Shown piece by piece: positions 10,760 to 19,624 of a stretch of 32,610 nucleotides of DNA (its first letter is position 1; the number at the start of each line of letters is the position of its first letter). Below the pieces are notes generated by a model. The model was not told the DNA's origin, did no database searches, and worked only from the letters and a program-made list of their open reading frames with translations. The translations under genes were made by a program, and so were the position numbers. This DNA comes from Dehalococcoidia bacterium (GTDB lineage: Bacteria; Chloroflexota; Dehalococcoidia; DSTF01; WHTK01): NCBI GenBank assembly GCA_035574915.1, contig DATLYJ010000109.1, positions 1 through 32,610 of the forward strand, in the 5' to 3' direction.

Positions 10760-10862
10760 AGAGCGGTCTTCATTACGCATCGAACGCCTGTCGCGGCGTC
10801 CGGCGCGGCGCTAATATTTCGGGCGAAAGAAGGCGGGCCGCGGGCGCTAGGTGCGGGCCCAG

Positions 10863-10898
10863 GAGCGCCCTCCTGCCTCCACGAGCCTGGAGGCGCTC
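10863..10898 (+). promoter_or_regulatory. hairpins covering the ribosome site of response regulator 2
   Basis: GCCTCCA (10875-10881) pairs perfectly with TGGAGGC (10888-10894) around a 6-nt loop. The right arm contains the GGAGG ribosome site of the gene starting at 10899. A competing pair, GAGCGCC (10863-10869) with GGCGCTC (10892-10898), shares bases with it. The two cannot form in full together, which would suit translational control. The same DNA dyad could instead be a protein-binding site. Confidence 0.4.
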
Positions 10899-11612
10899 AT
10901 GTCCACAGAGCCACTCATCCTTGCCGTCGACGATGAGCCGGCGATCCTTCGCCTTGTCCGCATCGAGCTCACCGCCCAGGGCTTCAGAGTCGCCAGCGCC
11001 ACTAACGGGCCCGATGCCCTGAGGATGCTTGACGAGCAGCGGCCGGACCTGGTGCTGCTCGACATCCTCATGGAAGAGATGAGCGGCATCGAAGTCCTAC
11101 GGCGGATCCGCGAAAGGGCCAACATCCCGGTCATCTTCCTGACCGCCAAAGGCCGCGACACCGACAAGGTGCGCGGGCTGGAACTGGGCGCGGACGACTA
11201 CATCACCAAGCCCTTCCACCCGGACGAGCTCGCCGCGCGCGTGCGCGCGGTCCTCCGCCGGAGCACCAGCACGTCCGCGCCGGACAACATCGTCCGGGCC
11301 GGCTCGGTGGAGGTCGACCTGACGCGGAGGCTGGTGCGCAAGCACGGCGGCCCCGTGCCGATGACCCGCACCGAATGGATGCTCCTCGAGAGCCTGGCGG
11401 CGAATCACGGAAAGGTGATGCTCAACTCCGAGCTCCTGAGCCGCGTGTGGGGCCCGGAGTACCGCGACGACCTGCAGTACCTGAGAGTGTGGGTCTCCCG
11501 GCTGCGGAGCAAGCTCGAGGATGATCCCTCCCGCCCGGAGATTATCAAGACGCGCTACGGGATCGGGTACATCTTCGAAGCCACGGAAGCGCCGCTGGCC
11601 GCGTCCGCCTGA
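10899..11612 (+). CDS. orphan OmpR/KdpE-like response regulator (paralogue 2)
   Basis: The 237-aa product has a receiver domain (Asp11/Asp12, phospho-acceptor Asp55, Lys in ITKPF) joined to a winged-helix domain (RTEWMLLESLA; YLRVWVSRLRSKLE; IIKTRYGIGYIFE). It differs from its two paralogues in the loop after the phosphorylated Asp, reading DILMEEMSG where most receivers have DxxMPxxxG. The start is ATG 10899 with GGAGG 6 nt upstream, buried in a hairpin. It follows the NADH dehydrogenase on the same strand after 139 nt that include an AT-rich TAATAT, a possible -10 box without a clear -35. No histidine kinase is nearby. Confidence 0.93.
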   Translation: MSTEPLILAVDDEPAILRLVRIELTAQGFRVASATNGPDALRMLDEQRPDLVLLDILMEEMSGIEVLRRIRERANIPVIFLTAKGRDTDKVRGLELGADDYITKPFHPDELAARVRAVLRRSTSTSAPDNIVRAGSVEVDLTRRLVRKHGGPVPMTRTEWMLLESLAANHGKVMLNSELLSRVWGPEYRDDLQYLRVWVSRLRSKLEDDPSRPEIIKTRYGIGYIFEATEAPLAASA

Positions 11613-11776: not shown

Positions 11777-12508
11777 TCAGGACTCGCTCGTGCCCGCGTC
11801 CGCTTCTTCGGGCTTCTGTTGCTCGGCGTCGAGCAGGTAGCCGATGCCCTGCAGCGTCTTGATGATCACGGGGTTCGCCGGGTCCGGTTCGAGCTTGCTG
11901 CGCAGCCTCGAGACCCAGACCCGGAGGTACTGCAGGTCGTCGCGGTACTCCGGCCCCCAGACCTTGCTCAGCAGCTCCGTGTTCAGCATGACCTTGCCCG
12001 CGTTCGCGGCGAGGTGTTGTAGGAGCATCCACTCCGTCCGCGTCAGGGTCACGATCTCGCCGGCCTTCTTCACCAGGCGCCGGTTGAGGTCGATCTCGAC
12101 GTCGCCGGCGCGCACGAGGTTCTCGGTGCTCGAAAGGCCGACGCTGCGGCGGAGGACCGCGCGCACGCGCGCGCTCAACTCCTCCGGGTTGAAAGGCTTC
12201 ACCAGGTAGTCGTCGGCGCCCATCTCCAGGCCGCGCACCTTGTCGGCGTCGTTGTCCTTCGCGGTGAGCAGGATGATCGGGATGCCGCTGCGCTCGCGCA
12301 GCTTGCGCATCACCTCAAGGCCGCTCATGTCCGGCATCACGATGTCGAGCACCGCGATGTCGGGGCGCTGTTGCTCGGCGATGCGAAGGGCCTCCTCGCC
12401 GCCGCCGGCGGTCACAACCCTGAAGCCCTGACTCGAGAGCTCAAGCTTTATCAGCCTCTGGATGCCGACCTCGTCATCGACCGCGAGGATCAGCGGTTCG
12501 GAAGTCAT
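11777..12508 (-). CDS. orphan OmpR/KdpE-like response regulator (paralogue 3)
   Basis: The 243-aa product has a receiver (Asp11/Asp12, phospho-acceptor Asp55 in DIVMPDMSG, Lys in VKPF) and a winged-helix output domain (RTEWMLLQHLAANAGKVMLN; YLRVWVSRLRSKLE). By eye it is closer to paralogue 1 (1781-2509) than to paralogue 2. Initiation at ATG 12508 is backed by AGGAGG close upstream. It converges on paralogue 2. The short repeats upstream at 12520-12541 could be a binding site, as OmpR-type proteins bind direct repeats. No partner histidine kinase is present; the only kinase in the window is phoR, some 17 kb away. Confidence 0.93.
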   Translation of the reverse strand: MTSEPLILAVDDEVGIQRLIKLELSSQGFRVVTAGGGEEALRIAEQQRPDIAVLDIVMPDMSGLEVMRKLRERSGIPIILLTAKDNDADKVRGLEMGADDYLVKPFNPEELSARVRAVLRRSVGLSSTENLVRAGDVEIDLNRRLVKKAGEIVTLTRTEWMLLQHLAANAGKVMLNTELLSKVWGPEYRDDLQYLRVWVSRLRSKLEPDPANPVIIKTLQGIGYLLDAEQQKPEEADAGTSES

Positions 12509-12541: not shown

Positions 12542-12642
12542 AGACGGTTCTCCCCATTCGTGGCGTCCTCGGACGCCCGCCAGCCATCCGGTAGGCCGGC
12601 GCGGGTCAAAGTCATGATTGAACGCGCGCGATTCAAGACACG

Positions 12643-12669
12643 TTGACCGGCCTGATGGCGCTGTATCAA
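12643..12669 (+). promoter_or_regulatory. weak plus-strand promoter candidate
   Basis: TTGACC (12643-12648) and TATCAA (12664-12669) resemble -35 and -10 boxes, but the 15-bp spacer is short. They could drive the membrane protein gene at 12774. Just upstream is a dyad of TTGAA and TTCAA around a CGCGCGC core (about 12618-12636). Otherwise the gap between 12509 and 12773 shows no coding signal. Confidence 0.25.
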
Positions 12670-12773
12670 AGGCGTTAAGGTGGCCTCACGCCGTTCGCGC
12701 GCCTCCTTCGCCGGCGAGGCGGCGCCCACCGCGTGTTATTCGCGTGTAACTCGCCCGGCCCTAGGCTGACGGC

Positions 12774-13205
12774 ATGAGGGCGGGCCACCGCGACGAGGGC
12801 AGCGGTGAGGGACAGGCGCGCAGGGCCCTCTTCCTCGCGCAGGCGTGCTATTACCTGGCGACCGGCCTCTGGCCCATCCTGGACCGCCGGACCTTCGAAG
12901 CCATCACGGGGCCAAAGAGAGAATTCTGGCTCGTGCGCACGGTCGGCGCTCTGGCGACGGCGATCGGGGCAGTCCTGGCGCTGGCAGGGGCCAGAAGGCG
13001 GCCCTCCGCCGAGGCGCACGCCCTGGCGATAACCAGCGCCGTTGCCTTTGCGGCGGTCGACTTGAACTACGTTCTCCGGCGCCGCATCTCGCCGGTGTAC
13101 CTGATCGATGCGCTTCTCGAAAGCTTGCTCCTGCTCGCCTGGGCGAGAGCGCTCGCGAGGCGCATGCCGCTGTCACGGGCTGATATGGAAACCAGAGACG
13201 CCTGA
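12774..13205 (+). CDS. small four-helix membrane protein, uncharacterised
   Basis: The 143-aa product has four probable membrane spans at about 18-36 (ALFLAQACYYLATGLWPIL), 51-72, 80-99 and 103-126, joined by short basic loops (REFW, ARRRPS, LRRRIS). The loop DRRTFEAITGPKREFWLVRT between spans 1 and 2 has the look of a conserved signature. I recall similar small bacterial membrane proteins with a TGLWP...FE..TGPK pattern but no assigned function. There is no Shine-Dalgarno; TAGGCT (12762-12767) ends 6 nt before the ATG, which may indicate a leaderless transcript. The gene ends inside a terminator-like hairpin. Confidence 0.7.
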   Translation: MRAGHRDEGSGEGQARRALFLAQACYYLATGLWPILDRRTFEAITGPKREFWLVRTVGALATAIGAVLALAGARRRPSAEAHALAITSAVAFAAVDLNYVLRRRISPVYLIDALLESLLLLAWARALARRMPLSRADMETRDA

Positions 13206-13231
13206 AATTCGGCCATAGAGGCCGCTTCAGG
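13201..13231 (+). terminator. terminator-like hairpin at the end of the four-helix membrane protein gene
   Basis: CCTGAA (13201-13206) pairs with TTCAGG (13226-13231), and inside it CGGCC (13210-13214) pairs with GGCCG (13220-13224) around ATAGA. The left arm contains the TGA stop codon. GCTATTT follows, a modest T tract. It separates the membrane protein gene from the histidine-rich gene. Confidence 0.5.
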
Positions 13232-13288
13232 GCTATTTAGCGCTGTCCGTGCGAGAGTGAGGGATAGCTGCTACGCAGGGAGGCCCAT

Positions 13289-13639
13289 ATGAAAACGTGG
13301 ATACCGCTTGCGGGACTCGCTCTGGTCGCTGTCGGCGCCGTCGCGAGCGGGCGCCGCAACCTGGCCTGGGAGCTGAAGAAGCGCACCCACCTCGGGGCCT
13401 TCGAGTCGCACCACCACGAGGCGAAGCTACACGAGCACGAGCACGCCCACGTCACGCACAACCGCCGCATAGGCCCGGACATGGTCGCCATGGGGGAGTG
13501 GGAACACCTGACCTCAATGCACGCGCACGAGCACAACCACCCGGCGATCACGCATTCCCATCTCCCCCACGAGGACGCCGAGCACGAGCACCTCGGCGAA
13601 GCCCATATCCACGACCACGAACACCCGGCGGTCTCTTAG
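13289..13639 (+). CDS. histidine-rich, membrane-anchored small protein
   Basis: The 116-aa product has one N-terminal hydrophobic span (IPLAGLALVAVGAVASG, about residues 5-21), then a hydrophilic domain packed with histidine: 23 of 116 residues, many in HxH or HxHxH pairs alternating with Glu or Asp (LHEHEHAH, MHAHEHNH, HIHDHEH). There is no cysteine. Such stretches bind transition metals (Zn, Ni, Cu, Co), so metal buffering or delivery at the membrane is a reasonable inference, without family support. The start ATG 13289 has GGGAGG 5 nt upstream. The cysteine-less A-type gene follows after 9 nt and is very likely co-transcribed. No metal transporter or metal-sensing regulator lies next to it. 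Confidence 0.75.
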   Translation: MKTWIPLAGLALVAVGAVASGRRNLAWELKKRTHLGAFESHHHEAKLHEHEHAHVTHNRRIGPDMVAMGEWEHLTSMHAHEHNHPAITHSHLPHEDAEHEHLGEAHIHDHEHPAVS

Positions 13640-13648
13640 TGGCGGGCC

Positions 13649-13945
13649 ATGATTAGCGTCACGCAAAGGGCAGCATCCGTGCTCGCGGAAGCGCTCCGGG
13701 CCGGGGAGGCGGGGCAAGAGGTCGGGTTCCGGCTGGTCCCCGCCCGGCCAGGGGAGATACTCCTGGCCATCGATGGGCCGCGCGAAGGCGACCGCGTGGT
13801 GCGGCACGAAGAGCGCACCGTCCTGCTGTTAGACGAATGGGCCGTGCGGGAGCTCGCCGGGGCCGTGCTCGACGCCGAGATTTCCGGCGACGGCGCCAGC
13901 CTGACGCTGACGGGCGGGAGGCGGCCCTCGGCGCGCTGGAACTAG
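13649..13945 (+). CDS. cysteine-less A-type (HesB/IscA-fold) protein
   Basis: The 98-aa protein resembles the HesB/IscA domain: N-terminal VTQRAASVLAEAL helix (ITxxAxxxL in IscA), strand GFRLVPA, then GEILLAIDG, a D-R-V-V turn, VLLLDEWAVREL (the hold-the-cluster helix region) and SLTLTG. Canonical A-type carriers use three cysteines to bind Fe-S clusters; this protein has none at all. It may be a degenerate member that keeps the fold for another role, such as protein interaction or metal binding by other residues. Assignment rests on pattern similarity by eye. It follows the histidine-rich gene after 9 nt with only a weak ribosome site (GGCGGG), suggesting coupled expression. Confidence 0.55.
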   Translation: MISVTQRAASVLAEALRAGEAGQEVGFRLVPARPGEILLAIDGPREGDRVVRHEERTVLLLDEWAVRELAGAVLDAEISGDGASLTLTGGRRPSARWN

Positions 13946-14010
13946 CTCATCGCCGCCCGCGAGCCTGTCGCCAGCACAAAGCGCTTGCTAGTATGTAGTG
14001 GCGTCGCCGT

Positions 14011-14087
14011 GCTGGCGTAGCTCAGAGGCCTAGAGCGACCGGCTCATAATCGGTAGGTCGTGGGTTCGACTCCCACCGCCAGCACCA
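14011..14087 (+). tRNA. tRNA-Met (anticodon CAT), elongator type
   Basis: A full cloverleaf folds by hand: acceptor GCTGGCG/CGCCAGC, D stem GCTC/GAGC, anticodon stem ACCGG/TCGGT with loop CTCATAA (CAT at 14045-14047), variable AGGTC, T stem GTGGG/CCCAC with TTCGACT, and discriminator A. The CCA end is encoded (14085-14087). The paired first base (G1-C72) and the absence of the three G-C anticodon stem pairs argue against an initiator. A tRNA-Ile2 read through lysidine modification of CAT cannot be excluded without its synthetase signature. A possible -10 box TAGTAT lies about 17 nt upstream. The rplM leader follows. Confidence 0.93.
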
Positions 14088-14172
14088 GGCACAATGTCGG
14101 CTGAGGACGCAGGAGCGGAGGGCCTCTGGCCCGGCTATGCGTTATGCCCAGTCCCTGTTACCATTTACGTTT

Positions 14173-14634
14173 GTGAAAACCTACGCACTCAAGGCTAGCG
14201 AGATCGAGAAGAAGTGGCGCGTGTTCGACGCGACGGACCAGCCGCTCGGGCGGCTGGCTACCCGCGTGGCGGTCGCGCTGCGGGGCAAGGACAAGCCCAC
14301 GTTTTCGCCGCACCTGGATATGGGTGACTTCGTCATCGTCACCAACGCCGAAAAGGTGAAGGCGACAGGCCAGAAGCTGGCGCAGAAGCTCTACAGGCGC
14401 CACAGCGGCTACTTCGGCGGGCTCAAGGAGAAGACTCTGGCCCAGCAACTGCAGAAGCACCCGGACCGGGTTATCCGCGATGCGGTCTGGGGAATGCTGC
14501 CGAAGGGGCGCCTGGGGCGCCGCCAGATCCGCCACCTAAAGGTGTACGCAGGGCCCCACCACCCGCACGAGGCCCAGGTCAACGCCGGCCTCGGCAAAAA
14601 CGCCAGGAAGAACAAGGAGACGAGCGCTTCGTGA
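14173..14634 (+). CDS. rplM: 50S ribosomal protein L13
   Basis: The 153-aa product is a component of the large ribosomal subunit. Family features are VKTYALKASEIEKKWRVFDA at the start, LGRLAT, ALRGKDKPTFSPHLDMGDFV, NAEKVKATGQK, GMLPKGRLGR and the C-terminal HPHEAQ. GTG 14173 was chosen because it gives the V-K-T-Y opening typical of L13; ATG 14137 would add 12 unrelated residues. No ribosome site precedes the GTG, but TACCAT lies 8 nt upstream. The 85-nt leader after the tRNA contains a GGGCC-tct-GGCCC hairpin (14120-14132), which could be part of an L13-type autoregulatory leader. It overlaps rpsI by four bases. Confidence 0.96.
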   Translation: MKTYALKASEIEKKWRVFDATDQPLGRLATRVAVALRGKDKPTFSPHLDMGDFVIVTNAEKVKATGQKLAQKLYRRHSGYFGGLKEKTLAQQLQKHPDRVIRDAVWGMLPKGRLGRRQIRHLKVYAGPHHPHEAQVNAGLGKNARKNKETSAS

Positions 14635-15026
14635 CCACCCAGCAGTACTTCGCCGGCACGGGACGGCGCAAGACATCCGTCGCCCGTGTCCGCCTCTACC
14701 CCGGTGCTCAGGAAGTCATCGTCAACGGGCGGCCCCTCAAGGAAGCGTTGCCCCGCCTGGTCCTCCAGGAAGCGGCCCTCCGGCCCCTTACCCTGACCGG
14801 CAACGCCGGCAAGTTCGGCGTGCAGGTAAAGGTGGAGGGCGGCGGCCACACCGGCTGGGCCGGCGCCATATCCCACGGTATCGCCCGTGCCCTGGTCGAG
14901 TTCGACGAGAACCTCAAGCCCCAACTGCGCCGCTTCGGCCTCCTGACGCGCGACTCGCGCATGAAGGAGCGCAAGAAGTACGGCCTGCGCAAGGCCCGCA
15001 AGGCGACCCAGTACACGAAGCGATAG
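14631..15026 (+). CDS. rpsI: 30S ribosomal protein S9
   Basis: The 131-aa small-subunit protein has its C-terminal tail at the decoding site near P-site tRNA. Signatures are GTGRRKTSVARVRLYPG at the N-terminus, VNGRPL, GGGHTGWAGAISHGIARAL, RRFGLLTRDSRMKERKKYG, and the expected terminal KATQYTKR. It starts at GTG 14631, sharing GTGA with the rplM stop, the classic rplM-rpsI arrangement. The 156-nt gap to the convergent isomerase gene holds a perfect GACGCT-gtt-AGCGTC hairpin (15109-15123) and GC-rich palindromic sequence. Confidence 0.97.
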   Translation: MTTQQYFAGTGRRKTSVARVRLYPGAQEVIVNGRPLKEALPRLVLQEAALRPLTLTGNAGKFGVQVKVEGGGHTGWAGAISHGIARALVEFDENLKPQLRRFGLLTRDSRMKERKKYGLRKARKATQYTKR

Positions 15027-17733: not shown

Positions 17734-17864
17734 TGGCCCTATCGTACCGCATCGGTGGTCATGGCTGAGGCCAGGCCCCAGAGTGCAAAGGCACAAGCGT
17801 CCTTACTTGCGCCAGCCCGCTGCCCAGGGCGCCGGGCCGGCGATGAGTGACCTGTCTACTCTCT

Positions 17865-17977
17865 GCTCTCTGCTCTCTGCTCTCTGCTCTCCGCTCTCTG
17901 CTCTCCGCTCTCTGCTCTCTGCTCTCCGCTCTCTGCTCTCTGCCGTCTGCTCTGTCCTCTGCTCTCTGTCCTCTGTC
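17865..17977. repeat. heptanucleotide tandem repeat (GCTCTCT)n
   Basis: Eleven consecutive 7-bp units fill 17865-17941. Each reads GCTCTCT or GCTCTCC; only the last base varies, in the order T T T C T C T T C T T. Degenerate copies continue to about 17977, ending against the TAG stop (17978-17980) of the acyl-CoA synthetase. The strand bias is extreme: almost pure pyrimidine plus one G per unit. It resembles the short tandemly repeated (STRR-type) heptamers known from cyanobacteria. It lies in the 244-nt gap between two minus-strand genes, so it would be in the 3' untranslated part of the synthetase mRNA or the upstream region of the phosphohexomutase gene. Confidence 0.9.
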
Positions 17978-19624
17978 CTACCCCACCGCCGCCCACCGCC
18001 GGGCGACTTCCGCCAGCTGCTCCCGGAGGTGGTTTTTCGCGAACTTGCCGACGCTCGTCTTGGGGAGCGACTCGACGAAGAGGACTTCGTCCGGCAGCCA
18101 CCACTTGGCCACCTTGTCGGAGAGGAAGGCCCTCACCTCGTCGGCGGTCAGCATCTGGTCCGGCTTCAGGACGACGGCCGCGACGGGGCGCTCGTCCCAC
18201 TTGGGGTGAGGCAGGCCGACCACGGCCGCCTCCAGGACCTTGGGGTGGGCCATGATCAAGTTCTCGAGCTCGACCGAGGAGATCCACTCCCCGCCCGACT
18301 TGACGAGGTCCTTGGTGCGGTCGACCAGCTGAATGAAGCCGTACTGGTCGATGGTGGCGACGTCGCCGGTGCGGAGCCAGCCGTCGGCCGAGAACTTCTC
18401 GGCGCTCTGCGGGTCGTGGTAGTAGGAGCCGGTGATGTAGGGGCCGCGCACCTGCAGCTCGCCGAAGGCAACGCCGTCCCACGGGAGCTCCCTGCCGCTT
18501 TCGACATCGACGATGCGGCACTCGATCGTCGGGACGATCTGGCCCTGCTTGTAACGGTACTTGTTCTGCTCCGCCTCCGGTGCATCCAGCAGCACCGAGG
18601 GGATGCGGGTGAGGGAGCCGAGGGGCGAGGTCTCGGTCATGCCCCAGGCATGCACGAGCTCGATACCGTTGCGGCGCAGGCCGTCGATGAGGGCCGGCGG
18701 CGCGGCGGAGCCGCCACAGAGCACGCGTCGCAGCTTCGGCAGTCTGCGGCCGCTCGTCTCGAGCAGGTTGAGGACCCCGATCCAGATCGTCGGGACGCCG
18801 GCGGAGATCGTCACGCCTTCGCTGTCGAGCAGGTTCACGACGCGCTGAGGGTCGAGGAAACGGTCGCTAAGCACCTGGGCGGCGCCCGCCAGGGCGCAGG
18901 TGTAGGGAAGCCCCCAGGCGTTGGCGTGGAACATCGGCACCGCGTACATGACGGCGTCGTGCTCGCCAACGCCGGTGCTGTTCGGCAGGCCGGCGACGAG
19001 CGAGTGCAGGAAGGTCGACCTGTGGCTGTAGACCACGCCCTTCGGGTTGCCCGTGGTGCCGGAGGTGTAGCACATGCCGGCGGCCGAGCGCTCGTCCAGG
19101 TCGGGCCAGTCGAAGCTCTCGGAGCCAGCGCCCAGGAACTCTTCGTAGTCGACGGTCTGGAAGGCGTCCGTAGACGGCCCCGGCCCTTCGTTCATGAGTA
19201 CCACCAGGCGGACGCTGGGGATCTTGCCCGCGAGCTGCTCGAAGACCGGCAGGACGGAGCGGTCGCAGAAGACGACCTGGTCTTCGGCGTGGTTGATGAT
19301 GTACTCGAGCTGGTCGTGAAAGAGGCGGACGTTGATGGTGTGCAGGACGGCGCCCATGCACGGGATCGCGAAATAGCACTCGAGGTGCGTCTGGGTGTTC
19401 CATCCGAACGTGGCCACGCGGTCACCGGGCCTGACGCCGGCCCTCTCGAGGGCGCTGGCGAGCTTGCGGGCGCGGACCGCGACGCCACCGTAGGTGGAAC
19501 GCCTGGGTTCGCCGGCCTCCCGCTGAGTCACGACCTGGCGGTAGGCATAAAGCTTCTCCGCGCGCCAGAGGATCTCCTTGATGAGCAGGGGGCGGTCCAT
19601 CATGGTGCTGGGCATCGGGAGCAT
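17978..19624 (-). CDS. acyl-CoA synthetase, AlkK/FadD-type fatty acid-CoA ligase
   Basis: The 548-aa ANL-superfamily enzyme activates a fatty acid with ATP to acyl-AMP and then acyl-CoA. Motifs include P-loop [17 protein letters not shown] (186-202), [39 protein letters not shown] and the C-terminal adenylation lysine in SVGKFAKN (about 527). Sequence around P-loop and SGGEWIS is very like Pseudomonas AlkK, so medium-chain substrates are possible. ATG 19624 has GGAGG 8 nt upstream; the extension to 19972 runs through repeats and is rejected. No beta-oxidation genes are near. Heptamer arrays lie just beyond each end of this gene. Confidence 0.9.

Follow-up and report, generated by a model that had tools for sequence, protein, structure and literature searches.

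Cysteine-free A-type proteins of Dehalococcoidia as candidate cluster-free adaptors, one of them encoded beside a histidine-rich putative metal buffer

The gene pair

The DNA under study, here called the window, is the entire contig DATLYJ010000109.1 (32,610 nucleotides; C109 in our numbering) of a Dehalococcoidia bacterium (phylum Chloroflexota) whose genome (GCA_035574915.1) comprises 3.25 Mb in 183 contigs and is 96% complete. A sequence-only reading had singled out two small adjacent genes, the first encoding a histidine-rich anchored protein and the second a HesB/IscA-like protein devoid of cysteine, and had proposed that they might form a metal handling or sensing module. The coordinates, strand and sizes of the two open reading frames (ORFs) and the 9-nt gap between them were found to be exact. 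The first gene (13289–13639, + strand) encodes a 116-residue protein with an N-terminal membrane segment (residues 4–21) and HxH arrays, supported by a family of homologues, and is preceded by a ribosome-binding site, AGGGAGG (13277–13283, +), located 5 nt ahead of the ATG. The TAG stop and the 9 nt TGGCGGGCC ahead of the second ATG occupy positions 13637–13648 (+); this segment and the ribosome-binding site were read directly from the sequence. The second gene (13649–13945, +) encodes a 98-residue protein with no cysteine, assigned to the A-type (IscA/SufA) fold by profile, model and structural alignment.

Both ORFs are more than chance reading frames, since they have homologues in other genomes and share a G+C content of 0.86 at codon position 3; for the histidine-rich gene, compared with its own-genome paralogue, nonsynonymous divergence (dN) is below synonymous divergence (dS). 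A strong ribosome-binding site was seen only before the histidine-rich gene, so that translational coupling of the 98-residue gene to it is possible. The two ORFs share a frame that is interrupted only by one TAG followed by three codons, so that readthrough would yield a fusion of the histidine-rich and A-type proteins. A recently split fusion or stop-codon readthrough was considered and set aside, as a common frame is expected by chance for about one third of neighbouring genes on one strand and none of the loci read held a fused relative.

Fold of the 98-residue protein

The A-type domain covers the whole length of the 98-residue protein. Taken alone, the window protein matched neither PF01521, in a scan to E ≤ 10, nor any NCBIfam model, and a single-sequence search of the genome contigs returned no relatives, against four with a subset alignment as query. 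PF01521 was matched weakly by 15 of 20 family members (best E 2.8e-4), and the profile of a 20-homologue alignment searched against the PDB detected AQ_1857 (7.5e-8), HI1723 (3.8e-7), DsrR (7.7e-5) and E. coli IscA (0.0046). An AlphaFold2 model calculated from a five-row alignment showed a predicted local distance difference test score of 87.1 and a predicted template modelling score of 0.77. Foldseek returned IscA and SufA as its best matches, and structural alignment gave Z scores of 11.1 for SufA (2d2a_B, root-mean-square deviation 2.3 over 89 residues), 9.8 for IscA and 9.0 for DsrR. On the basis of the family profile matches to IscA-like chains and the alignment of the model with SufA, IscA and DsrR, the predicted fold of the 98-residue protein is that of IscA/SufA. 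The HesB/IscA-like assignment was thus sustained, including by the comparison of a predicted structure with IscA that the sequence-only reading had suggested.

The closest homologue, from genome G024, shares 41% identity with the window protein and is joined to it in the tree at 94/86. Such fast divergence, together with the loss of the cluster ligands, might be expected of a decaying former carrier, a pseudogene-like paralogue without function. This explanation appears very improbable, as many intact ORFs of similar length occur across about 88 of 343 genomes of the class and residues A8, R28, D48 and D75 are invariant in the 20 family members. Moreover, the identity between the window gene and its G024 homologue is 0.34 at the third codon position, far below the values of 0.54 and 0.59 at the first and second positions.

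Cysteine loss across the family

The genomes of the class just mentioned were counted at a match of at least 48.5 bits to the cysteine-free A-type family. We examined 81 of the 109 places reaching this score, a hand count that includes the window; they were drawn largely from the highest-scoring end, without regard to their context. One of them, L178, was a fragment and was dropped, leaving 80 members in the counts. These were compared with 20 canonical proteins of the IscA/SufA/ErpA type (PF01521) from related genomes. Cysteine occurred at the three ligand columns in 0/80, 0/80 and 2/80 family members, against 20/20 canonical proteins at each column, and the GGCSG loop of the canonical carriers was missing from the family. 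Forty-six of the 80 members are entirely without cysteine and 67 have at most one. The absence of cysteine already noticed in the window protein was confirmed, and loss of the ligand cysteines is, judging from this alignment, a property of the whole family rather than a peculiarity of one protein. In a tree, the canonical proteins group together with 100/100 support, apart from the cysteine-free members; many of its other branchings are left open by the short alignment. Beyond the class, 45 of 301 genomes sampled from the phylum had a profile match at 1e-9, and the 21 such loci read included some proteins that are cysteine-free or nearly so and some that are canonical. The titles and abstract openings of the open-access literature searched held no description of this cysteine-free A-type family.

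Six of the 80 members (L168, L169, L175, L181, L200 and L212) carry C-terminal tails rich in cysteine and histidine, which give the impression that a capacity to bind metal was recovered beyond the fold itself. At L174 (3884–4531, − strand) a cysteine-free A-type domain continues into a thioredoxin domain.

Two further variants were observed. Five proteins of 177–188 residues from the window's order (L205, L206, L208, L210 and L214) combine an A-type-like domain with a C-terminal extension and form their own clade (100/100). In the wider phylum, L254 (genome G357) is A-type-like, with cysteines at unusual places and a Gly/Cys/His tail at its end.

A cysteine-free A-type protein as such has precedents in DsrR and in the N-terminal domain of NfuA. 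DsrR from Allochromatium vinosum (PDB 2k4z) is likewise a single A-type domain without cysteine, and both the profile and the model matched it, as reported above. It is described as having a part in the regulation of sulfur oxidation and was reported from four phyla, Chloroflexota not among them (PMC11406059). DsrR comes from organisms with dsr genes, whereas no dsr gene was present among the eight flanking window ORFs scanned. E. coli NfuA has A-type homology without cluster ligands, and reviews credit this degenerate domain with directing the protein to its apo-clients (PMC8593673, PMC11327457). In NfuA it is joined to an Nfu domain that binds a cluster, while the window protein is a single domain of 98 residues.

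Linkage to RNA-binding genes

The ORFs neighbouring the cysteine-free gene were clustered in 40 relative loci and the window. The neighbours that clustered were a two-domain zinc finger (zf_Tbcl/zf_Tbcl_2), an RRM protein and a cold-shock-domain protein. Profiles built from these neighbours in 40 of the same loci, which other neighbour types would escape, were then used for counting. A gene of one of the three types lay within 300 bp in 21 of the 81 loci, in each case with at least one partner upstream on the same strand, and the 21 loci span 12 taxonomic families by hand count. Within 1500 bp, the zinc finger was present in 17 of the 81 loci, the RRM protein in 6 and the cold-shock protein in 5. 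Under the 300-bp criterion, the controls returned 2 of 20 canonical A-type loci, both with an RRM gene on the opposite strand, and 0 of 13 histidine-rich loci. The zinc-finger family occurs in 176 of 197 genomes with about 2.9 genes per genome (in 51 of those listed), from which chance placement within 300 bp is estimated at the order of 0.1% per locus. A CoA-transferase cluster also showed linkage, in about 12 loci, and was left out of the argument. The repeated gene linkage points to RNA-binding proteins as putative partners.

This linkage also bears on whether the 98-residue protein might still serve iron-sulfur trafficking, by forming a heterodimer with the canonical A-type protein of its own genome and modulating cluster transfer. 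Such a canonical copy, with the motif GGGCSG...CACG, is indeed present (L150), and NfuA interacts with ErpA and, through its degenerate A-type domain, with clients (PMC8593673, PMC11327457). We regard this arrangement as unlikely. Three genomes with a cysteine-free protein (G024, G026 and G037), drafts that may be incomplete, gave no PF01521 match, so that a canonical partner may not be required. In addition, the linkage detected is to nucleic-acid-binding genes; linkage to suf/isc genes was not surveyed across the family.

The histidine-rich protein

The first gene of the pair encodes 23 histidines among 116 residues, as originally counted. The richest 90-residue stretch contains 23 histidines in this ORF and 14 in the runner-up among the 197 stop-to-stop window frames of at least 90 residues. 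A single N-terminal hydrophobic segment, residues 4–21, supported the anchored character attributed to the protein (Kyte-Doolittle 1.83). Five lysines or arginines follow in the next 20 residues and one precedes the segment; this concentration of positive charge after it suggests that the histidine domain faces the cytoplasm. The protein had no Pfam, NCBIfam (E ≤ 1) or PDB match. It resembles Hpn/HpnL in its very high histidine content and HxH repeats, but remained unmatched at E ≤ 1 although HpnL (NF033704) is included in NCBIfam, and represents a separate family marked by a conserved pattern of its own.

Counting its own genome throughout, homologues were found in 15 of the 148 relatives, 19 of the 343 class genomes and 15 of the 301 phylum genomes searched. 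Two of the class matches are weak, namely those of G003 (1.7e-10, interrupted by a stop) and G319 (8.8e-5). Two copies occur in the window's own genome, the second on contig C55, and two in G001, from the same taxonomic family; the window gene and its own-genome paralogue differ with a dN of 0.33 against a dS of 1.11. Eighteen histidines, one glutamate and one aspartate are invariant in 14 aligned homologues, and the family pattern ends with EAHIHDH. Since 18 conserved histidines are suggestive, the protein is a plausible metal-binding candidate, in agreement with the sequence-only reading. The N-terminal hydrophobic segment followed by more positive charge recurs in the own-genome copies and both G001 copies, while most other homologues begin at or near the histidine domain and look soluble. 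This distribution of anchored and soluble forms would fit a family of cytoplasmic metal buffers. No neighbour of the histidine-rich gene was conserved in more than 4 of 31 loci.

Adjacency of the two genes and their surroundings

The two families were surveyed in the 343 class genomes, with genome sets typed by hand. The cysteine-free A-type family was present in 88, the histidine-rich family in 19 and both in 9, own genome included. Only in the window do the two genes lie side by side, or even on one contig; in the other eight genomes they are on different contigs. The own-genome histidine-rich paralogue and both G001 copies lie on contigs other than those of the A-type matches of these genomes, and G024, home of the nearest A-type homologue, has no histidine-rich match. 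The proposal of the pair as a conserved metal handling or sensing module was therefore not upheld, adjacency being found in one of the nine genomes holding both families; absence of the pair from relatives is an outcome that the sequence-only reading had itself named as counting against its proposal.

The same data weigh on the idea that the pair is nevertheless a real metal-handling unit, in which the anchored histidine-rich protein would bind Zn, Ni, Cu or Fe and be docked to an apo-client by the cysteine-free A-type protein, so that two chains would share a task for which NfuA or the Cys/His-tailed members need only one. The 9-nt gap, the shared frame and the good ribosome-binding site on the first gene only would fit such a unit, and the Cys/His tails (for instance in L200 and L175) and the thioredoxin fusion of L174 indicate that the A-type domain does become coupled to metal- or thiol-active parts. 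Given the separate contigs elsewhere and the absence of the histidine-rich gene from G024, we consider this reading improbable.

Downstream of the pair, outside the system, are a tRNA-Met (CAT; 14011–14087, +) and rplM and rpsI, encoding L13 and S9 (14137–15026, +; Pfam/NCBIfam). Only one further genome from this taxonomic family was examined, G001; in it, rplM is preceded not by the pair but by ORFs resembling the rpoA C-terminus, rplQ and truA (names by eye), and the two cysteine-free A-type proteins of that genome group with those of G016 and not with the window's. As rplM-rpsI follows the tRNA-Met and the pair in the window and the rplQ/truA-like ORFs in G001, a rearrangement point may be situated immediately 5' of the window rplM. 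The G024 homologue is flanked by folC-like and fabF-like ORFs (names by eye). From the differing contigs, the G001 rplM context and the G024 neighbourhood, the adjacency of the two genes seems, on present evidence, recent or accidental.

On the 5' side lie an ORF without Pfam match (12774–13205), two OmpR-type response regulators and an NDH2-like oxidoreductase. The two regulators are similar and stand end to end on opposite strands (10851–11612, +; 11777–12508, −). By Pfam, the eight flanking ORFs are L13, S9, the NDH2-like protein, the two response regulators, a PGI-like and a PGM-like protein, and the unmatched one. A promoter and terminator scan of 12600–14200 gave nothing clearly exceeding shuffled sequences. 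Further along the window, at about 17847–17990, a repetitive coding-like stretch with SALCSLL and ESGEQRA repeats on opposite strands is probably a short tandem repeat array.

A proposed cluster-free adaptor beside a putative metal buffer

The explanation we favour, with a probability of roughly 55%, is that the 98-residue protein belongs to an unnamed A-type family and acts as a cluster-free adaptor or regulator, beside an independent histidine-rich metal buffer. Two independent small genes would have become adjacent in this lineage. The 98-residue protein, from an A-type family that lost the three cluster cysteines, would bind a partner through its A-type surface without ever carrying a cluster itself, in the manner of NfuA, whose degenerate A-type domain binds apo-clients, and of DsrR, which has a part in regulation yet binds no iron. 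Such precedents work by contacting other proteins, and the most probable role of the Dehalococcoidia proteins is, by analogy, that of small adaptors or regulators. For many relatives, the zf_Tbcl zinc-finger, RRM and cold-shock genes found directly upstream in the same orientation suggest a nucleic-acid-binding machinery as the likely partner. The first gene would encode an independent histidine-rich metal buffer, held in this case at the membrane's inner face.

Several observations weigh against this explanation. The open-access literature searched yielded no functional data on the cysteine-free family. The window copy has no zinc-finger, RRM or cold-shock neighbour, so that its RNA link is borrowed from relatives at about 26–41% identity, and the linkage is absent in 60 of the 81 loci. 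The Cys/His tails in 6 of 80 members suggest that part of the family handles metal. Co-occurrence of the two families in nine genomes is slightly above the 4.9 expected (one-sided Fisher p 0.03, kinship uncorrected), and the 9-nt gap would permit translational coupling of the two genes.

A broader and more tentative possibility, which we hold to be rather doubtful, is that throughout the class the A-type fold came to serve small RNA-binding stress proteins as a partner that binds no cluster, the docking surface being kept and the metal chemistry dropped, with side branches regaining metal or thiol chemistry through Cys/His tails or thioredoxin fusion.

The histidine-rich family is unnamed despite a pattern conserved across several families of the phylum. 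Annotation pipelines miss the cysteine-free A-type proteins or would label them iron-sulfur carriers. A large cysteine-free A-type family implies that the fold has been retained for a role besides cluster binding. The recurrent proximity of RNA-binding genes offers a testable hypothesis for what that role may be.
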